Below, in pieces: positions 10,880 to 27,921 of a stretch of DNA of 28,356 nt. The notes below the pieces were generated by a model. The model was given only the letters and a program-made list of their open reading frames with translations, was not told the DNA's origin and searched no databases. A program made the translations under genes and the position numbers. The first letter of the stretch is position 1. The number at the start of each line of letters is the position of its first letter. The DNA comes from a virus: positions 1 to 28,356 of IMG/VR virus record IMGVR_UViG_3300037140_000043; one strand, given 5' to 3'.

Positions 10880-11283
10880 TGATCGGACGACTCCCTACCT
10901 GCACTTGCGGCTCCTGCCCGAAATGTAAGCGAGCCGCGTATATGCGTAAATGGTGGAGCAATCTAACGCCTGCGCAGCGCAAGGCTAAGACGCGTAAACG
11001 CAACCTTCAGCGTGTGCGTGCCTATGATCGAGAACGTGGATCGCGCAATGATTCGAATGCAAGCAGAACGTCTGAGCAAGTACGAGCGCGCAATGCGGTA
11101 GCGCGAGCATTGCGCAAGGGCGATCTGATACGCCAACCATGTGAGTTTATAAATGACGATTGCTCTGGGCGTATCGAAGCCCATCATGACGATTATGATC
11201 GCCCGCTCGATGTGCATTGGGTTTGCACGAGTCACCATCGGATGCTTGAAGGCATTGGTCCTTTGGTTACTTCGGCAGGGTAA
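10879..11283 (+). CDS. HNH-like endonuclease with N-terminal zinc knuckle
   Basis: A 134-residue basic protein. An N-terminal cysteine cluster (C8, C10, C13, C16) and an Arg/Lys-rich helix (RKAKTRKRNLQRVRAYDRER) precede a C-terminal HNH-like centre: C88 and C95, then EAHHDDYDRP with H102-H103, and CTSHHR with C116, H119 and H120. The AHHDDY form is frequent among phage HNH proteins. It lies directly before the first giant multidomain gene, sharing its stop base with that gene's ATG (TAATG). Codons are more A/T-rich than in the large genes on either side, fitting a mobile origin. Confidence 0.78.
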   Translation: MIGRLPTCTCGSCPKCKRAAYMRKWWSNLTPAQRKAKTRKRNLQRVRAYDRERGSRNDSNASRTSEQVRARNAVARALRKGDLIRQPCEFINDDCSGRIEAHHDDYDRPLDVHWVCTSHHRMLEGIGPLVTSAG

Positions 11284-14200
11284 TGAGTATGGGCTTTGAT
11301 CCCGATACCATCACCCAGGACAAACTGCACGAACTGCGTAGTGCGGCCGAACACGCCTGGGGAGACGAGACGCGTCATCCTGACTTCCAGGGACACCCTC
11401 AGGCTAGTGCCGGTCAGTGCTTCGTCACGTCGCAGTGGCTAGCCGACAAGCTCGGTGGCTTTGTGGGTACTAAGCACGGTCACTACTTTTGGGTGTCTCC
11501 GGACAAGCAGTACGTTATCGATCTCACTGGTGACGAGAACTCTTACGAGCCGACGACCGCAAAGACGAGTCTGTTGGATGAGGACGACGAGCCATATGAC
11601 TTCGAGCCCGAACAGAAGCGCCATCGCTCAGGGCCGATTATCTACACACGCGCAGACAGCCCTCTCTATCGTGACTTCCGCATCAAGACATATCCGGATC
11701 ATCCGCGTGCAGAAACGTTCGCACGTCGAGCCAATGCGGCACTGGAGCGAGGCATCCCTAAGCAGGCGGATAGCGGCGAGTGGGGAGACGCATACCCCGG
11801 CGAAGAGCCGCAGGCCAATCAAGACTTCGAAAATCGCTACTTCCACGATACGCGCAGCGATCTGGAGCTTTCGATGGAGAAACCAAACGAGAAGGAGTAC
11901 AAGTTCTTCTACGGCAATGGTCAGCTTCATGTCTCGCCGATGCATAGCCACGATGAACTACGCGATCACTCTGGGACTCCGGCGAACCATGAGGGTCCTA
12001 TGGCGGTGGGCTACGTCACTGTGCGAGGGCGTGATGCTCTCTGGAGCGTAGAAGGCAACATCGCACTGCGCGGGCTCGTCAAAGAGCTTCAGGACTACGG
12101 CAAGCGCGTGGGTTGGACTTGGGGCGGGCTCGTGGACGGTAGCGGTCAACCCATCCACGATGACTTTGGAGCCAAGAAGTCCTACTGGTACACCACCAAG
12201 GGCGGACTCAAGCTAAGCGAGGCACCGTTCCGTGGCAGCAAGGGACGTATCGTGGTCGAAGGCAAGATGGCGAAGATTCAGGGCAAGCTCAACCCGGCCG
12301 CACGAGCGGGGCTAGAGGAATGGGCTGACGACTTCGGTCTTCGTCTAGCCGAGTATCCCGGCGGCACGGACATGAACGACCGCATGAAGAACAAGGAGTG
12401 GACGGAGGAATACGACAAGGGCAACCCGGAAGCCGAGCCCCAGAAGGCATTCGATGGCGAGCCGCAGGGTGAGCTAACGTGTTCGACATGCGGTGTCGTG
12501 CTGCCGAACTTTCGCCAGTACGTGTTGCACAACAAGCAACATGATCCCCTAGATGCGGCTCCCGCTTACCTGGATGACGGTCACTTCCCAACGCTCAACG
12601 ACAAAGACGACGTTCTTCCTCTTCGTCTTCGCAACAGCGAACCTACGGCGCAACCGCTAGCTTCCTTCCGCGAAGCTTCGACTGTCGAAGACTTCGACCT
12701 CTACTCCAAGCTCTGGGGTTACAATCGCGACGAGGGCTATGTCTTCTACGGCGGCTACCTCGACGGTCAGATCGTCGGCTATGGCGTTGTGCGCCCCGGC
12801 GAGGATGAGGCGGAGGTCGTCATGGTGCATTCGGCAGTGCATAACCGAGGCGTAGGCACGGCCCTTTTGCAACGGATGCTGCTTCACTACCCGAATGCGT
12901 ACACGCATGCAGACTCGCCAGAGGGAGAACGGCTCGTGCGCCGCATGGGCATGGTCAATACGAGCGGGCATCGCTACGTGACCGCAGCGGGCGGCAAGGA
13001 ACCAAAGGACCTGCTCGAAGCGCCTCTTCCGTTCGTCTACGACATCGACAAAGACTACATCACGGTAGGTCATCCTGGTATGAAGACCTCGGACATCATG
13101 GGACAGTTCACGCCGGGTGGTATCGTGGAGGGCTACTACGAGCCCGGTGGCAAGATCGTCATCAACACGACGACCACGATGCCGTACTCGACCTATCACA
13201 TGATGCAGCTTTGGTACTGGAGCCATCCTCACATGGAGATCACGAGCCTCGAACTTGAAAATCAGCAGGGTAAGGCACAGAAGCTCGCCACGGCGGACGT
13301 TGGCTCCTACGTCAAGACACTCACTGCGGCCGATGGAGCAGCCTGGAACGCCTTCCAGGCGCTACGTAAGGCCGGGGGTCATGTCTACGTCGTGGGCGGT
13401 GCCATACGCGATGCTCTACTTCAGAAGGAGCCGCGTGACATTGACTTCATGGTGTCGGGCCTCCCGGCTGAGCAGGTTGAGAATGTGCTCGACAAGCTTC
13501 CGGGCAGCGTCAACTGGGAGGGCAAGCGCTTCGGCACATACAAGTACCGCACCAAAGGACAGGAAGTGGAGATCGCTCTGCCGCGCACGGACACCTACGA
13601 AGAGGGTGGACGACGAGGCCAGGGCAAAATCACCGTAGACCATAACCTACCAGTGGAGAAAGACCTTGCGCGTAGAGACTTCACAGCGAACTCGATGGCG
13701 GTTGACCTTGAGACGGGACGACTTGTCGATCCTTACGGGGGAGCGAAGGATATTGAGTCCCATACCCTCCGTACTACTCACCCCGATTCCTTTGACGAGG
13801 ACCCGACGCGTTTGGTACGCGCTCTCGTTGCTGCTTCACGGCACGGGTTGGTGCCGGATGAGCGCACCCGCAAGGAGATGGAGGAACACGCCTACCGACT
13901 CGACAACGAGTCGCCAGATGCGCTCAAGCAGCAACTAGACAAGCTCCTCGCAAGCCCCAATCCTGCCGGAGCACTACGCCTCGCGCAGGAAACTGGCGTG
14001 CTGCATCACATGTTCCCGGAGCTAGCGAACAACTTCGACTACGATCAGCGCAACCCGCATCACAACTACTCCCTTGGTGAGCACAGCCTGAACGTGCTCG
14101 ACAACGTATCGCATCTGACAGATGATCCCGAGGTCCGTCTCGCGGCTCTCCTCCACGATGTTGGCAAGCCAGCTTCATCATGGGTCGATCCTGCGACAGA

Positions 14201-14726
14201 GGTTACGCATTACTACCCCGGCATGATCGACGGCCAGCCGGTCGGTGCCGATCACGCGAAAGTGGGCGCAGACATCGCCGAGCAACGTCTCCGTGAAACG
14301 TACAACTACCCCGTCTCGAAGATTCGTAACGTCCACAATCTCATCAGCCATCACATGTATCCCGATTTCAGTTCTCCTAAGGGCGCAAGACGTTTTTTGA
14401 ATCGAGTGGGAGATTCGGCAGATGATTTGATGACCTTGCGTGAAGCGGACATTGCCGGAAAGGGTGCAGAGAACAAGCGCAATCAAGCAACGGTTGATCA
14501 GCAGCGCGAACTGGTTGAGCAAGCTCGCCAAGCCGGTGCTCCGACCACCCAATCGATGATCTCTGTGAACGGAAGCGATTTGCTTGTTCTGGGGCTCAAA
14601 GGACCTCAGATAGGCACCGTTTTGCGACAGTTGACAAATGACGTAGTAGAGAATCCCGCCTTGAATGAGCGCCCTGCGTTGCTACAGAGGGCTACAGAAT
14701 ACGCTCAAGCGCAGCCTAATACGTAG
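11283..14726 (+). CDS. Giant multidomain protein: YunG-like, C2H2 finger, GNAT, CCA-adding nucleotidyltransferase-HD
   Basis: A 1147-residue protein. In order: residues about 5-85 resemble YunG (GQCFVTS with C46, HGHYFW with H67, DLTGDE with D80, a possible C-H-D triad). At about 205-290 is a small domain starting FFYGNGQLHVSP. A C2H2 finger has C400, C403, H416 and H420. A GNAT acetyltransferase spans about 470-560 (cofactor loop NRGVGTALLQ near 521). At about 583-656 is a second module like the one at 205. From about 681 to the end is a class II CCA-adding/poly(A)-polymerase-type enzyme: VGGAIRD at 704-710, D719/D721, RRDFTANSMAVD, then an HD domain (H958-D959). CCA enzymes restore tRNA 3' ends and their HD domains hydrolyse phosphoesters. 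All key motifs are intact. Start ATG 11283, or 11289. Codon use shifts after about 14385. Confidence 0.88.
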   Translation: MSMGFDPDTITQDKLHELRSAAEHAWGDETRHPDFQGHPQASAGQCFVTSQWLADKLGGFVGTKHGHYFWVSPDKQYVIDLTGDENSYEPTTAKTSLLDEDDEPYDFEPEQKRHRSGPIIYTRADSPLYRDFRIKTYPDHPRAETFARRANAALERGIPKQADSGEWGDAYPGEEPQANQDFENRYFHDTRSDLELSMEKPNEKEYKFFYGNGQLHVSPMHSHDELRDHSGTPANHEGPMAVGYVTVRGRDALWSVEGNIALRGLVKELQDYGKRVGWTWGGLVDGSGQPIHDDFGAKKSYWYTTKGGLKLSEAPFRGSKGRIVVEGKMAKIQGKLNPAARAGLEEWADDFGLRLAEYPGGTDMNDRMKNKEWTEEYDKGNPEAEPQKAFDGEPQGELTCSTCGVVLPNFRQYVLHNKQHDPLDAAPAYLDDGHFPTLNDKDDVLPLRLRNSEPTAQPLASFREASTVEDFDLYSKLWGYNRDEGYVFYGGYLDGQIVGYGVVRPGEDEAEVVMVHSAVHNRGVGTALLQRMLLHYPNAYTHADSPEGERLVRRMGMVNTSGHRYVTAAGGKEPKDLLEAPLPFVYDIDKDYITVGHPGMKTSDIMGQFTPGGIVEGYYEPGGKIVINTTTTMPYSTYHMMQLWYWSHPHMEITSLELENQQGKAQKLATADVGSYVKTLTAADGAAWNAFQALRKAGGHVYVVGGAIRDALLQKEPRDIDFMVSGLPAEQVENVLDKLPGSVNWEGKRFGTYKYRTKGQEVEIALPRTDTYEEGGRRGQGKITVDHNLPVEKDLARRDFTANSMAVDLETGRLVDPYGGAKDIESHTLRTTHPDSFDEDPTRLVRALVAASRHGLVPDERTRKEMEEHAYRLDNESPDALKQQLDKLLASPNPAGALRLAQETGVLHHMFPELANNFDYDQRNPHHNYSLGEHSLNVLDNVSHLTDDPEVRLAALLHDVGKPASSWVDPATEVTHYYPGMIDGQPVGADHAKVGADIAEQRLRETYNYPVSKIRNVHNLISHHMYPDFSSPKGARRFLNRVGDSADDLMTLREADIAGKGAENKRNQATVDQQRELVEQARQAGAPTTQSMISVNGSDLLVLGLKGPQIGTVLRQLTNDVVENPALNERPALLQRATEYAQAQPNT

Positions 14727-15366: not shown

Positions 15367-18300
15367 ATGCCGAGGATAAACGAACAACCAAGGAGTCTCT
15401 ATGAAACGCCCGAAGGTCCCGGTTGGGGCACACATCAAAGCACACTGGCCGAAAGCCCCGAGGGCAATGGCCAAGCTCAAATAGATGATCCCTACTTCCC
15501 GACTGCCGAGGATGCAGTAGAAGCCAATCGGGCATCTTTCGCGGCCCATGGGCAGGCCAACCATGCTCTTCTTCGTCCCGAGGTCCTACAGGGCGCTCTA
15601 GGCCGCGCACAGAACCAGTACAACTATACGGGCAGCATGGCCAACGCAGCAGCGGCACTCGCTCATGGCGTAGGACAGGCGCAAGCGTTTGAGGATGGCA
15701 ACAAGCGTACAGCCTATTGGTTGACCCATCACTTCCTGCATGAAAATGGGTACGGCCAGATCGCCCCAAGCGATGATGAGGAGCTAGCTGACCATCTCAT
15801 TGGGTATGGAGAGGGCACGCACTCGATGGAAGACACGGCAAACATGTTCCGGGGTCGCGGGCACATCTCTCGCACAGCCAACATCCTTGATGAAATCCAT
15901 GCAGAACTGTCACCCTTGGTATGGGACAACCCCGCCGCGACCAAGCCAGTCCTCAAGCCTCTCCACGCGCACTGGATCAAGAAGTCGATTTACGATACAC
16001 TCGAACATGCGGGTTACACAAACGTGGAGGATTGGCTCACTCTTGTGCTGACGGGAAGTTTGACTACGTACCAGTATTCAGAGGACTCGGACTGCGACGT
16101 GAGCTTGTTTATCGACAGTCGTATTTTTCCTGAGTGGTCCCGCGCAGAGATGATCGCGCTCATGGTAGATAAGCTCGATGGCAGACAGATGCCGGGAACG
16201 CCGTTTCCTCTTCAAGACTTCGTGGTCGGCGGAGGTATCAAGCCCAATGACCTATACAAGCCGGGACTGCGTTCCGGCTATGACATCGACACGAACCAGT
16301 GGATCGTGCCTCCCGAGAAGAACCGCGTGCATGATGTGAAATCAGAACAAGGAGGCTTCTACGCATGGGCGCTCCAGATGGCAGACAAGATGGAACGCCT
16401 TCTGCGCTACGAGCCCGACGCGGCGATTCGCTTCTGGCACTCGATCCACAAGAAACGCCAGATCGACATGAAGAAGGGCAAGGGCGACTATGCCGAGTCC
16501 AACATCATCTACAAGATGCTGGCCAATCGCGGGCTCTTTCCTCAGATCAGCGGCGTAAGCGGCGAGTACATCGCTAAGACGGCCGCAAGCGATTGGTTCG
16601 CCCCGAGCTATATGGTGCCGGATGAGACGAAGCACGCGATCCACGAGTGGGCGCACACGCTTCCGTGGCCACTGGGTTCGCGCATGGCACCCCCTGATCG
16701 CTATCACGTCACGGGCGTCTACAGTCCGAGTGGTTTTGGGGACCCGAGTCACCACGACTGGGCGGAGTCACATAGCGGACTCACGTATCCTGTGCAGACA
16801 ACAGGGGTCGAGAGTTTCTCTCCGCCCAAAGTCGGCGAGCAAGCACCGGTCGTCATGCGCGTGCATCATCCGCAATTGGAGGCAGATACGGAACGTTTGA
16901 TGGACGAAGCGCAGCAACGCGGCCTACCAGTCTCGCGCTTCCCCGGTGGCTACAAGCCTCATATCACTCTGGGCTACAGTCCGACTCCGCTAGAGGTCGA
17001 GCATCCGAACATGAACTTCAAAGTCGGCCCGCTACGCGACCTCCATTCCTACTACGACGAGTTGAAGCAGCAGCGCGAAGGAAAGACTTCCGTGCAGACC
17101 CCGATGGGCTTCCAGACGATGTTCCATGTTTCTCCGCGCAAGAATCGCGAGTCGATCCTAGAGCATGGTCTAGAGGGACATGAGCAGGGACGCCGCGAGG
17201 AGTCGCCGTGGGACTACACTTGGCCGCAGCCTCCGGGCAACTATCTCTTTGACAATCTCGATGATGCGCGCGCATACACGCACACGATGCATCAGCAGAT
17301 CAATCCCCGCGAGCCGGGAGAGTACGGGCATGATAATGAGGACTACGAAGAAGATCGATACGAGTACCCTGATCCTCCCGAGGGTTTTGAGGACTGGCCC
17401 GAGGAGGAGCAAGAGGCGTGGCACGATGAGGCGGAACCTGTCGAGCGAAACGACGATCCTAACGGAATGGACATCTACTCGGTGCAGGCTCATGGTCTGC
17501 CCATAGCTCCGGACCCCGAGGCGCTAGTAAGTCAGAAGGCGCATGACAACGACTGGGACCTCGGTCGCATTCATGATGAGCAGGAGAGGTTGCGTGCTGA
17601 GGAGACGGGGCGCGGATACGATCCAGATAGTCCAAACGAGGAATTGGGCGGCTACCACGGCACCGAGCCCAAGCGTTACTACGTGCCAACGGCCGTACAG
17701 CCATCGCGCCTCGCATTGGAGGAGCACCATCCCTCTTGGGGCCTAACGCCCGAGCATTCAGAAGAGGCTCACGAAGAGACAAACGACAAAGAGATACCGA
17801 CGCCATGGGCGAAGATACCCTTCACGGAACGTCCGGTTCCCGGTCATGAGGCGAAGATCGCAGGCAATCCGCAAGTGGCGAAGTTCGTGTACCACCCGAA
17901 CAGCAATCGTCTACTCTTGGGCCAGATGGGTCGTGAGGAGGGCGAGCATTCAACGCACTCGGAACTCGCCCATCACCCAATATGGGAAGATGTGCTACCT
18001 AAGGAAATGGCGTTTGGGGACATCAACGAGAACGGTTACGTCACAACGCATGCTAGGCCGCAGATCAGCTTGGACCACGATGACATGAATCAGTATCAGA
18101 AGCAGTATATGACCGAGGAGGCTCTTCGTCGCGCGGTGCCGGGGGCTCAGTTCACGAATCCGACTAAGAAGCTCAATCCTGCTTGGGAGCTACCGAGTGA
18201 TCCTGAGGTCACATATATGGGTAAGCCGCCAGTCGTGACACCACGAAATGAACCCGAGGAGCGTTGGCAGTTCAAGGCGAGCAACCCAGTCGCCCACAAG

Positions 18301-18669
18301 GTCTATGACGAGACAATGCAGATGGGTGGCAGCACGCGTGATCTCTACGGCAACGGGCCGACTGCGCGTTATGGCTTTGCTCCTGACCTGGCCACCCAGA
18401 CGCCGATACCCGAGGATCAATTCAGTCCTCAGGCCGTGGAAGACTTTATCGCCAGGTTCAAGGATCGTCTCCATGAGCCGGGGAAATACGTCGGGGCCTG
18501 GAAGCACGAGGGCAACATTGTGCTCGATGTGACCGAAGGCCATGATGATCACGATGAAGCTTATCAGCGAGCCTGGAACGGTCATCAGAAGAGCATGTGG
18601 GATTCGGTTGCGAATCAGGAAGTCCCTGTTCGTGGCCTAGATTACGAACAGCCCTTGACAGCGCAGTAG
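15367..18669 (+). CDS. Giant multidomain protein: Fic, nucleotidyltransferase, 2H phosphoesterase, ADP-ribosyltransferase-like
   Basis: An 1100-residue protein; ATG 15367 behind AAAGAG is the only usable start before the first domain. In order: a Fic/Doc domain (about 1-150) with FEDGNKRTA at 108-116, but Gln106 where the catalytic His is expected. A minimal nucleotidyltransferase (about 215-400) has GS at 230-231 and DxD at 242/244. A 2H phosphoesterase (about 425-565) has YHVTG with H447 and KPHITL with H532. An ADP-ribosyltransferase/KptA-like domain (about 580-710) has FHVSP with H587, GNYLF with Y626 and an IYSVQA strand. An acidic linker follows, then a module FVYHPNSNRLLLG (about 838-905) that recurs in the other giant protein, and a C-terminal domain (about 1015-1090). 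Partners and substrates unknown; the cluster suggests RNA, nucleotide or protein modification. Confidence 0.85.
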   Translation: MPRINEQPRSLYETPEGPGWGTHQSTLAESPEGNGQAQIDDPYFPTAEDAVEANRASFAAHGQANHALLRPEVLQGALGRAQNQYNYTGSMANAAAALAHGVGQAQAFEDGNKRTAYWLTHHFLHENGYGQIAPSDDEELADHLIGYGEGTHSMEDTANMFRGRGHISRTANILDEIHAELSPLVWDNPAATKPVLKPLHAHWIKKSIYDTLEHAGYTNVEDWLTLVLTGSLTTYQYSEDSDCDVSLFIDSRIFPEWSRAEMIALMVDKLDGRQMPGTPFPLQDFVVGGGIKPNDLYKPGLRSGYDIDTNQWIVPPEKNRVHDVKSEQGGFYAWALQMADKMERLLRYEPDAAIRFWHSIHKKRQIDMKKGKGDYAESNIIYKMLANRGLFPQISGVSGEYIAKTAASDWFAPSYMVPDETKHAIHEWAHTLPWPLGSRMAPPDRYHVTGVYSPSGFGDPSHHDWAESHSGLTYPVQTTGVESFSPPKVGEQAPVVMRVHHPQLEADTERLMDEAQQRGLPVSRFPGGYKPHITLGYSPTPLEVEHPNMNFKVGPLRDLHSYYDELKQQREGKTSVQTPMGFQTMFHVSPRKNRESILEHGLEGHEQGRREESPWDYTWPQPPGNYLFDNLDDARAYTHTMHQQINPREPGEYGHDNEDYEEDRYEYPDPPEGFEDWPEEEQEAWHDEAEPVERNDDPNGMDIYSVQAHGLPIAPDPEALVSQKAHDNDWDLGRIHDEQERLRAEETGRGYDPDSPNEELGGYHGTEPKRYYVPTAVQPSRLALEEHHPSWGLTPEHSEEAHEETNDKEIPTPWAKIPFTERPVPGHEAKIAGNPQVAKFVYHPNSNRLLLGQMGREEGEHSTHSELAHHPIWEDVLPKEMAFGDINENGYVTTHARPQISLDHDDMNQYQKQYMTEEALRRAVPGAQFTNPTKKLNPAWELPSDPEVTYMGKPPVVTPRNEPEERWQFKASNPVAHKVYDETMQMGGSTRDLYGNGPTARYGFAPDLATQTPIPEDQFSPQAVEDFIARFKDRLHEPGKYVGAWKHEGNIVLDVTEGHDDHDEAYQRAWNGHQKSMWDSVANQEVPVRGLDYEQPLTAQ

Positions 18670-24767: not shown

Positions 24768-24784
24768 TTGCAGTCCTGTACACT
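24756..24784 (+). promoter_or_regulatory. Sigma70-type promoter TTGACT-17-TACACT
   Basis: TTGACT at 24756-24761 and TACACT at 24779-24784 are exactly 17 nt apart. The start codon at 24825 is 40 nt downstream with a good ribosome site (AAAGGA), so this transcript has a normal leader, unlike most in the window. Confidence 0.75.
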
Positions 24785-24824
24785 CACGATCAGAACGACT
24801 CTGATCCCCAAGCAAAGGAATATC

Positions 24825-25730
24825 ATGAAGCGCATTCTTGTAGGACTCGTGGCGACGGCGCTTCTGGCGCTTGGCGGTACGAGTACAGCATTGGCAACGA
24901 AGGCCGTATCGGCAAAGGCAACGTATTCGAACTGTACGACGGTTACGGGTACGAAAACCAAATGCAAGAACTACTACGCGCGAGGCCCGGTTGGTCCCAA
25001 AGGTCCTAAAGGCGCTCAGGGCCTTCCGGGCATCCCTGGAGTAGCTGGTCCGATTGGTCCAGAAGGCAAGCAGGGGCTACAAGGGGCCATCGGAGCAACG
25101 GGTCCTGCGGGTCCCGAAGGCAAAGAAGGTTCCGCCAGCACGGTGCCGGGACCCGCTGGTCCGCAGGGTCCTAAGGGCGACACTGGTGCTACTGGAGAGG
25201 CTAGTACCATCCCCGGTCCAGTGGGTCCGGCAGGTGCGACTGGTCCTCAGGGTCCGGCTGGCACTAGCCCGCTGGTCTTTGGTCCATATTCGTCCACGAG
25301 CGAAGATACGTCTGGATGTTCAGGGCCTCCGGAAAACAGCGACCATGAATCGGTTTGGGCGAACGATACGTTCACCAGAACATTCATTGTATCTCCCCAG
25401 TCGGACGGTACATTCGTCGTGACGGAGTTGTTCAACGGCACTTTCGTAACCAATGGCGGCGAAGGCGTAACGCCCAACTGTCAATCGCTGAACGCGGGTA
25501 TCGAAGGGCAATTCGTTGGCGATGAGGTATTCACCGTTCCCACGCCCGTTGGATTCAATCCGGCAGCAGCAGGCGCAGTGAGCAATACGGGAGACTTCTT
25601 CAAAGTCTTCTTCAATGCTTCTGTGCCTGGTAGTTACGCATGGCAGTTCCACTACATCACTACGAGTAACGGAACGTGGGACAATGCTGACGCTTCGGGC
25701 GGCGGCAACGTAGGCAGCATCCATAACTAG
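24825..25730 (+). CDS. Secreted collagen-like protein 1
   Basis: A 301-residue protein. Residues 1-24 are a Sec signal peptide ([18 protein letters not shown] ... ALA). A short domain with two Cys follows. Residues about 53-150 are collagen-like Gly-X-Y repeats ([20 protein letters not shown]), interrupted by EGSAST and GEASTI. The last 150 residues form a globular beta-rich domain with two Cys and many Thr/Asn/Gly. Collagen-like stalks form triple helices and often carry adhesive heads. The ribosome site AAAGGA supports ATG 24825. The signal peptide implies export from the host rather than packing into the virion, which is unusual for a phage collagen fibre. Confidence 0.88.
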
Positions 25731-25849: not shown

Positions 25850-26647
25850 GTGAAGCACAACTTCAAGCGCATCATCGGTATTGTCGCTGCGATAGCAGCG
25901 CTGGCGGTACCGGCATCAGCGATGGCATGGACACCGACGAACCTCTCTCTGTCCTGTGGACAGGTGGATGTCTCGGTACCAACCGCAGGAACGTACAACT
26001 ACAGCGTCACGGGGCTGCCTAACGGCACGTTCACGACCACCACGTCTCCCGAGTGGGTGACGATTGGCGGCGTGTTCGGTAATGGCCTCAAGACGGTCAA
26101 TGTGAAATACGGCACGGAGGCGGGGACATCTGTCACCTATCTCTTTGTCAACTGCACGGAACCAACGGGCAAAGAAGGTCCTCGTGGTCCCGAAGGTCCC
26201 GCAGGTAAAGGTACGCCTGGCGAAAAAGGCGCTACCGGTCCTCAGGGTCCTTCAGGTCCAGCAGGCCCAAAGGGCGACACAGGCCCCGGCGGTCCAGCAG
26301 GTCCTAAAGGCACTACGGGCGAAACAGGTCCGAAAGGTCCTCCTGGCTCGCAAGGTCCGTCAGGTCCTCCGTCTGAGGTCCCCGGTCCTGAAGGACCAGC
26401 CGGTCCCACGGGTCCGATAGGGTCGAAAGGTCCTGAAGGCCCTCAGGGTCCAGCAGGGTCTAAAGGCGAACCGGGGTCGGGTCTTCCTGGCATTCCGGGA
26501 GTAGCCGGAGCGGTCGGTCCTCAGGGACCAACGGGGCTTCAGGGCCTCTGTTGCCCTCCGGTCGTCAAGGCCCCTGCACCAAAGAAGAGCGCACCTAAGA
26601 AGGTCAAGCACCACGTCGTCAAACACACACCGGCCTTCACTGGCTGA
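25850..26647 (+). CDS. Secreted collagen-like protein 2
   Basis: Start chosen at GTG 25850 because AGGAAGG sits 6 nt before it and the product then begins with a clean signal peptide ([18 protein letters not shown] ... SAMA); ATG 25823 is an in-frame alternative. The 265-residue protein has an N-terminal beta domain with two Cys (about 30-105). Collagen Gly-X-Y repeats run from about 108 to 235 ([18 protein letters not shown]), ending in LPGIPGVAG as in protein 1. A Cys pair and a basic Lys/Pro/His tail ([15 protein letters not shown]) close the protein. It is a paralogue of protein 1 with the globular domain moved to the N-terminus. The Lys-rich tail could contact cell-wall polymer. Function in the phage unknown. 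Confidence 0.87.
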
Positions 26648-26651
26648 GGTC

Positions 26652-27317
26652 ATGACGACTCGTAGCATCAAGACAGCGGCAGCCCTCTTCGGAGGGCTGC
26701 TCTGTCTTTTTTCTTCTACGGCGTTGGCGAACACGCCGACCGTTACGCTGCACAGGACGATGCCCGTGCATGCGAGCCCACATGGGCGAGTGACGGGAGC
26801 AGTCAGCGCCACAACTCCGCTCACGCATCAGCTTACGGTGTTGCCGATCATCGCCTCGAAGCCCGGATGGGATCGCGTGCGACTGCCACAGCGGCCCGAT
26901 GGCTCGACAGGTTGGATTAGCACCATTGGCACCACTCTTGGCACTACTCCGTGGCTCATACGTGTCAATCGCGCCGAACGCAAAGCCCGTATCTATCGCT
27001 CAGGGCGTTTGCAGCGCACCTATAGCGTCGTCGTGGGCCGACCGAGCCTTCCCACTCCTGCGGGGACGTTCTTCGTGGCGGAGGTCTTCGAAGATCGAGG
27101 CTCTGTCTCAGGTCCGTATGCACTCGCTACGTCGGCTTACTCGAACGCCCTTCAGGAATTCGATGGCGGGCCAGGACAGATCGCGCTCCATGGTCGAGAA
27201 GGGTTGCCTGAACCATTGGGTACGGCCTCTTCTCATGGCTGCATTCGCTTCGACAACGCGGCCATTGGATGGCTCGCGTGGCATGTGCTTCAGGGGACCT
27301 TGATAGTGATACACTAA
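26652..27317 (+). CDS. Secreted L,D-transpeptidase (YkuD domain)
   Basis: A 221-residue protein: signal peptide at residues 1-26 (AAALFGGLLCLFSSTALA), an SH3-like segment at about 35-95 (VHASPHGRV ... GSTGWIST), then the YkuD catalytic domain. The catalytic signature is HG in ALHGREG and SSHGCIRFD, whose Cys is the active nucleophile. These enzymes make 3-3 peptidoglycan cross-links or attach proteins to the wall, and act outside the membrane. The style (ALATSAYSNALQEFDGGPGQ) resembles L,D-transpeptidases I associate with Thermoleophilia, suggesting acquisition from a host. It starts 4 nt after the collagen 2 stop, and a strong terminator hairpin lies within its signal-peptide codons. Confidence 0.9.
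   Translation: MTTRSIKTAAALFGGLLCLFSSTALANTPTVTLHRTMPVHASPHGRVTGAVSATTPLTHQLTVLPIIASKPGWDRVRLPQRPDGSTGWISTIGTTLGTTPWLIRVNRAERKARIYRSGRLQRTYSVVVGRPSLPTPAGTFFVAEVFEDRGSVSGPYALATSAYSNALQEFDGGPGQIALHGREGLPEPLGTASSHGCIRFDNAAIGWLAWHVLQGTLIVIH
26670..26712 (+). terminator. Intrinsic terminator inside the L,D-transpeptidase signal-peptide codons
   Basis: Arms GCAGCCCTC (26679-26687) and GAGGGCTGC (26692-26700) pair perfectly around TTCG. Outer arms AAGACAG (26670-26676) and CTGTCTT (26702-26708) extend the stem by 7 bp across a small bulge. A run of T (26707-26712) follows. It is the strongest terminator in the window and lies 18 nt into the next gene. Confidence 0.85.
27307..27315 (+). promoter_or_regulatory. 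Extended -10 promoter TGATACACT, leaderless gene
   Basis: TGATACACT overlaps the last codons of the L,D-transpeptidase. GTG 27322 follows after 6 nt with no ribosome site. No clear -35 box. Confidence 0.55.
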
Positions 27318-27321
27318 CGGC

Positions 27322-27921
27322 GTGAAGCGCATCCCGCTGTACGGCAACGGAAATGTTATTCGAGCATACGCGCTCGTGGATGACGGAGACTTTGAGGACC
27401 TCAATCAGCACCGTTGGTGCTTGTCTGACGGGCGTGCCGTGCGTACCGTTTTGATGCATCGACAGATCATGGGCGAGCGCGTTGATCATCGGGACCGCGA
27501 TCCTCTCAATAACCGGCGTGAGAATCTACGCCCTGCCACGTTGGCACAAAACAATCAGAACAAAGGGCTGTCTCGCGCGAACAAATCGGGCTATCGAGGA
27601 GTCTCCTGGAACAAGAAGCGCGAGAAATGGGAAGCACAGGCAAAGCTCAATTACCGTAGTTACCACCTTGGGCGTTATGATACCCCTGAGGAAGCGGATG
27701 AGGCGGTCAAAGCCTTGATACTAGAAAAGATCGAACCTCATCTCCTCTCTCGTCGTCTATCTCGGCTCAAGGAAGCCCAACGGCGACTGTCGCGTGTTCG
27801 GTGCCCTGGATTCTGTACACAGGGACACAAGTTGACTCCCGACAACCTTTACGGAGTCAAGGGAAAGCAGCAAAAGTGTCGAGCTTGTACGATAGAAAGA
27901 GGAAAATCTAAGACAACGTAG
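27322..27921 (+). CDS. HNH endonuclease with AP2 DNA-binding domain
   Basis: A 199-residue protein. The HNH motif has MHRQIMG, VDHRDRDPLNN with D55-H56, and NRRENLRPAT. An AP2 domain follows at about residues 89-128 (SGYRGVSWNKKREKWEAQ, then HLGRYDTPEEA), a DNA-binding fold typical of phage homing nucleases. A C-terminal Cys group (C161, C165, H169, C186, C189) suggests an additional zinc site. GTG 27322 is 6 nt after a -10 box; a leaderless start is likely. It is the fifth homing-type gene and probably inserted itself after the transpeptidase. Confidence 0.87.
   Translation: MKRIPLYGNGNVIRAYALVDDGDFEDLNQHRWCLSDGRAVRTVLMHRQIMGERVDHRDRDPLNNRRENLRPATLAQNNQNKGLSRANKSGYRGVSWNKKREKWEAQAKLNYRSYHLGRYDTPEEADEAVKALILEKIEPHLLSRRLSRLKEAQRRLSRVRCPGFCTQGHKLTPDNLYGVKGKQQKCRACTIERGKSKTT

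Follow-up and report, generated by a model that had tools for sequence, protein, structure and literature searches.

A probable leaky terminator between a phage collagen-like gene and the L,D-transpeptidase gene whose signal-peptide codons it overlaps

The virus record IMGVR_UViG_3300037140_000043, analysed here over 28,356 nucleotides (nt; positions 1 to 28,356, in the following termed the window), is a fragment of an uncultured phage in which the gene of a collagen-like secreted protein is followed on the same strand by that of a secreted L,D-transpeptidase (LDT). A stable hairpin with a T-tract (positions 26670-26712) is located shortly behind the stop codon of the former gene and within the signal-peptide codons of the latter. 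Judged by sequence comparison, this element is probably a leaky intrinsic terminator of the collagen gene overlapping LDT codons, which would yield much substrate and little dedicated LDT. The proposed LDT substrate is the collagen-like protein itself, comprising a signal peptide, collagen repeats and a basic tail that ends in KHTPAFTG directly before the stop. The features concerned are:

26670 to 26708, plus strand: terminator hairpin with 7-base-pair (bp) outer stem, CG/T internal loop, 9-bp inner stem and TTCG loop
26707 to 26712, plus strand: run of six T at the hairpin foot, two of which pair with the outer-stem base
25850 to 26647, plus strand: gene of the collagen-like secreted protein, 265 amino acids, GTG start after AGGAAGG, stop TGA, Pfam Collagen PF01391
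26633 to 26644, plus strand: codons of the A-F-T-G motif directly before the collagen stop, from codon comparison with a sister phage (see below)
26652 to 26654, plus strand: LDT start codon ATG, 4 nt past the collagen stop, first possible start in frame
26652 to 26732, plus strand: LDT signal peptide and first mature residue, MTTRSIKTAAALFGGLLCLFSSTALA followed by N, with hydrophobic core and ALA/N site read from the sequence
26652 to 27317, plus strand: secreted LDT, 221 amino acids, YkuD domain with HG...SHGC motif, Pfam PF03734 (E 1e-18)

The hairpin and its position in the LDT gene

The outer stem of the hairpin is formed by pairing of AAGACAG (26670-26676) with CTGTCTT (26702-26708), while the perfect 9-bp inner stem consists of GCAGCCCTC (26679-26687) and its partner GAGGGCTGC (26692-26700), joined by the TTCG loop (26688-26691). 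Coordinates, both stem lengths, the loop and the six T had been described in a preceding sequence-only reading of this DNA and were all confirmed. Since the AA of the outer stem engages two of these T, the free U-tract past the full stem is TTTTCTTCT. Hence, a GC-rich stem with a short loop and a U-tract directly 3' of the stem, as expected of an intrinsic terminator, are both present. The hairpin has a minimum free energy (MFE) of -30.1 kcal/mol (z = -8.1), which was equalled by none of 200 shuffles, and it is part of the MFE structure when the region 26600-26760 is folded. It is the sole convincing terminator within the window as well as the lowest-energy terminator across about 397 kb made up of the window and three related phage records. 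In synonymous recodings of the LDT signal peptide, the hairpin energy was never reached (0 of 30,000; z = -5.4), on which ground a chance fold of a GC-rich region was rejected; because of this test and of its position, the hairpin is regarded as non-random. No riboswitch or other known RNA family was detected at Rfam gathering thresholds. Three other viral contigs carry the same 20-bp hairpin core, there outside long open reading frames (ORFs), which is a shared core and not homology.

With ATG 26652 as first start, and later in-frame starts (TTG 26724, ATG 26760 and others) losing the signal peptide, the hairpin must lie inside the LDT coding region, as had been proposed. A downstream start at TTG 26724 or ATG 26760 was rejected as the true LDT start, as it would drop the signal peptide together with its hydrophobic core. 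The encoded enzyme displays the YkuD domain, the catalytic His and the SHGC cysteine, with catalytic residues invariant in the alignment with bacterial relatives, and PDB sequence matches lead to YkuD of B. subtilis. The AlphaFold model of the LDT is shallow (pLDDT 61.7) and adds no weight to this assignment.

Evidence from a sister phage

A sister phage (IMGVR_UViG_3300037222_000100, 168 kb; G003) is 99% identical to the window up to the start of the collagen gene, and it has no LDT gene. Its own collagen stop is followed after 24 nt by a terminator-like hairpin with T-tract, the stem sequences of which differ from those of the window, and the sequence TTCTACG after the T-tract is common to both phages, in register. 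In the window, the distance from the collagen stop to the hairpin is 22 nt, and other clean terminators of this phage group are found about 16-37 nt past gene ends. Because of this distance and the near-identical place of the hairpin in the LDT-less G003, hairpin 26670-26712 is most likely the terminator of the collagen gene, with the LDT frame running over it. Hence, the earlier view of a terminator embedded in the LDT gene stands as far as its presence in LDT codons is concerned, while its primary role is most likely to end the collagen transcript. The collagen C-terminus, too, differs between both phages, reading PAFTG in the window and PTETGRG in G003 (codons altered to T-E-T-G-R-G).

A further gene directly downstream of the LDT gene is concerned in this comparison:

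27322 to 27921, plus strand: HNH/AP2 endonuclease-like gene, Pfam AP2 and HNH_3

A 36-nt spacer in G003 contains a 28-nt match to the LDT codons 26917-26944 of the window along with the last HNH codons. This match is better than that of any of 1000 codon shuffles (0 of 1000 as good) and of every tile of other-phage DNA except the source itself. Since the spacer holds both the LDT match and HNH tail codons, deletion in G003 is favoured, and LDT and HNH genes thus appear to have been lost there; an insertion of both genes in the window lineage is disfavoured by these apparent remnants. The joint absence of LDT and HNH/AP2 (27322-27921) from G003 may also be seen as a possible homing-endonuclease-linked gain or loss.

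The same locus could be explained by a recombination accident, in which the LDT gene landed over an existing terminator without any regulatory meaning and is maybe hardly expressed. Such an origin would agree with the terminator at the same place in LDT-less G003 and with the gain and loss of cassettes at this locus. The G003 spacer, however, resembles an LDT and HNH remnant, so that the overlap may predate the split of both phages, the same arrangement recurs in bacteria (see below), and reading frame, signal peptide and catalytic residues of the LDT are intact. An accident is, therefore, very improbable.

A recurrent pair of xTG protein and LDT in bacteria

Relatives of the phage LDT (about 39-53% identity) are present in Solirubrobacterales, other Thermoleophilia and metagenome-assembled genomes of soil actinobacteria, with Thermoleophilia as the main source of the family, and the phage enzyme branches beside the main group of these bacterial relatives. 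Sequence relationships of this kind suggest, but do not prove, a phage host among Thermoleophilia or soil actinobacteria. In genome contigs, a single-protein scan gave no LDT relatives, and they were found by a motif-pattern search. Among phages, no LDT relatives were obtained from INPHARED, nor from IMG/VR by single-protein scan, while an alignment scan returned one distant viral LDT (27%), the neighbours of which do not end in xTG.

Considering only LDT-family loci that have an upstream same-strand ORF, this ORF has [FVL][TAS]G, in most cases FTG, as its exact end directly before the stop (in the following termed xTG end) in 45 of 56 non-redundant bacterial loci, where gene ends were taken from open frames instead of curated calls and the loci are phylogenetically related, the counts thus being non-independent events. 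The same ending occurs in 6 of 214 control ORFs, some of these six themselves being near an LDT. The upstream proteins are usually secreted and varied, including ice-binding proteins (PF11999) and a DUF7507 protein, with the collagen-like protein in the phage. In many bacteria, the LDT start codon shares bases with the stop of its partner gene (ATGA or TTGA). Single genomes of Solirubrobacter and Paraconexibacter contain nine LDT matches each (loci L058-L156; isolates G006-G008). Several of these multiple LDTs are each matched with an xTG partner, and the partners differ in their C-termini (FTG, VTG, FAG), which suggests specificity classes.

The ice-binding proteins were surveyed in 199 genomes of the class Thermoleophilia, yielding 28 proteins with enough downstream sequence. 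An LDT gene comes next in all 24 cases with xTG end and in none of the four cases without (Fisher p = 5e-5). Of the latter (L124, L126, L129, L131), three carry LPxTG and one FPFTG plus helix, i.e. sortase-type ends, which in these LDT-less homologues consist of LPxTG, a helix and a basic tail. Since these homologues end in sortase-type signals, homologous adhesins appear to have swapped their anchoring signals. The xTG end itself fits neither of two known kinds of signal. LPXTG, hydrophobic helix and positive tail of sortase substrates are missing in the phage collagen as well as in its bacterial counterparts, which stop at xTG. Likewise, a C-terminal Lys acceptor as in Lpp is absent, as the C-terminal residue is Gly and several proteins have no Lys nearby, e.g. 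one ending in ALRPTFGPSRFTG.

Taken together, these comparisons are consistent with the xTG end being an LDT-dependent C-terminal sorting signal. In its wider form the proposal is tentative, and we hold it with somewhat less than even confidence: an undescribed type of cell-wall sorting, in which a secreted dedicated LDT would recognise [FVL][TA]G ends, use the C-terminal Gly as leaving group and join the protein to peptidoglycan. It would operate across Thermoleophilia, replace LPXTG on homologous adhesins, and have been taken up by the phage for its collagen-like protein, dosed by a hairpin that partly doubles as LDT N-terminal codons. As a conjecture, the achiral C-terminal Gly may be likened to D-Ala4 of the stem peptide, and a C-terminal L-residue followed by Gly could, equally conjecturally, mimic the L-centre/D-Ala end of the stem peptide. 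A description of the pair of xTG protein and LDT was not found in the open-access literature, most subscription papers being outside this coverage.

Recurrence of the hairpin in bacterial pairs

The hairpin is no peculiarity of the phage LDT gene, as bacterial LDT operons carry comparable hairpins past the stop of the partner gene. A perfect stem of at least 9 bp, at most 80 nt past the xTG stop, is present in 17 of 46 pairs (phage included). No such stem was found in the controls inside the LDT or the upstream gene; among other tandem gene ends, 2 of 51 had one (p = 5e-5), and among other gene ends, 6 of 206 did. About ten pairs have their stem within LDT N-terminal codons. In L046, L052, L066, L121 and the phage, a signal peptide could not be accommodated from any start codon behind the stem, which is therefore coding in these pairs; in L064, L053, L084 and L085 it is coding if the first start is used, and in L058 only with a TTG start. 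L052 belongs to Solirubrobacter sp. CPCC 204708 and L064 to S. phytolaccae, both of them cultured relatives. The stem of L104, L110 and L059 lies ahead of the probable LDT start or overlaps it. Most of the coding stems exceed synonymous recoding.

Proposed mechanism and alternatives

In the phage, the LDT starts only 4 nt past the collagen stop, for which reason the terminator doubles as signal-peptide codons. The hairpin thereby lies between two linked same-strand genes whose pairing is conserved in bacteria, an arrangement expected of a terminator that sets stoichiometry. Any transcript from an upstream promoter reaches the terminator-like hairpin before the LDT is encoded in full, as must every transcript that could code for the full-length enzyme, and LDT output must hence depend on read-through, in agreement with the sequence-only reading. 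Most transcripts would stop at the hairpin and encode the collagen protein alone, while a minority would read through and encode the LDT too, perhaps also the HNH gene, resulting in many substrate molecules per enzyme molecule. The LDT would then act on the neighbour-encoded protein via its extreme C-terminus FTG and link it to peptidoglycan. The shared collagen-LDT transcript, termination and its degree of leakiness, stoichiometry and anchoring chemistry are what we infer from this arrangement.

Leaky termination has to be weighed against several points. Among shuffled 28-kb windows, in which the best hairpin averages -18.6, two of 200 (about 1%) reach -28.7 and hence hold an equally stable hairpin, making genome-wide rarity alone moderate evidence. 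Apart from the phage, clear U-tracts exist in just a few pairs, most bacterial counterparts being without one, and termination is, therefore, less certain in bacteria than in the phage. Furthermore, the LDT start follows the hairpin in several bacterial pairs, and a long perfect stem is missing in roughly two thirds of the pairs, which makes the hairpin frequent, not universal. Finally, late in infection the site could lose its relevance through antitermination by the phage.

The missing U-tracts also speak for a post-transcriptional role, in which the hairpin would not terminate transcription and instead protect the collagen mRNA at its 3' end or slow LDT translation, as most bacterial counterparts are strong stems of this kind. 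Since TTTTTT directly adjoins the stem in the phage and T-rich tails are present in L058, L059 and L105, such a role is unlikely.

Alternatively, the hairpin might act as a translational attenuator, with ribosomes reinitiating at the LDT ATG entering the hairpin and blocking termination, so that LDT is made only if the collagen mRNA is well translated. Ribosome-controlled attenuation gains some plausibility from the closeness of LDT start and upstream stop, which are 4 nt apart in the phage and overlap as ATGA or TTGA in many bacterial pairs, and from the position of the hairpin in the first codons, where it would be opened by an advancing ribosome. An initiating ribosome, however, would end before the stem, and such control is impossible in L104, L110, L059 and others, where the LDT start lies past the hairpin. 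Moreover, neither a leader peptide nor an alternative antiterminator fold was identified at the junction (26600-26760 folded), although the LDT frame itself could act. Judging by ribosome footprints in general, a ribosome that terminates at the end of the collagen gene would not cover the hairpin, and a constitutive, partial stop of transcription is hence favoured over a switch. Attenuation is thus considered improbable, though it deserves more credit than either the post-transcriptional role or the recombination accident, and partial termination at the end of the collagen gene is preferred.

Other genes of the window

The portal protein shares about 40% identity with portals of large phages of Mycobacterium, Gordonia and Rhodococcus. 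Upstream of the collagen gene (24768-25730), a further collagen-like secreted protein is encoded; it has no xTG end and is 99% conserved in G003. Positions 11283-14726 and 15367-18669 encode two very long proteins with enzyme domains, one with a tRNA nucleotidyltransferase domain, the other with Doc-like and RNA-ligase-like matches.

Comparison with known systems

Here, the same bases spell out terminator and signal peptide and go along with a gene pair recurring in both soil bacteria and a phage, and the xTG protein with its adjoining LDT looks like sortase-independent wall fixing of surface proteins in a large group of soil bacteria that has been little studied. Subunit ratios in operons of clostridial ABC importers are set by internal terminators with long GC stems and poorer U-tracts (PMC9045158). 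As in the phage, a stem-loop after the gene of an abundant extracellular partner lowers the downstream gene; those terminators are intergenic, though, while the phage terminator lies inside the signal-peptide codons of the downstream gene. In E. coli, 3' ends within ORFs have been found, some of which were assigned to intrinsic termination (PMC7815308). These likewise lie inside coding sequence, whereas the phage site is located at a two-gene boundary and belongs to the upstream gene.

With regard to anchoring, LDTs of Gram-negative bacteria attach Lpp, BbpA and Lpg1810 to peptidoglycan, the known acceptors being Lys side chains of the C-terminal region or N-termini of outer-membrane proteins (reviewed in PMC12729407). 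Common to these systems and the present one are YkuD-family enzymes and a short terminal motif for the fixing of envelope proteins. Here, in contrast, [FVL][TA]G forms the exact C-terminus, the motif occurs in actinobacteria and phage, and its LDT is encoded next door, with attachment as the presumed outcome. The sortase/LPXTG system shares a C-terminal signal on modular surface proteins, but the proteins described here stop at Gly, without helix or charged tail after TG, and have a YkuD enzyme as neighbour.
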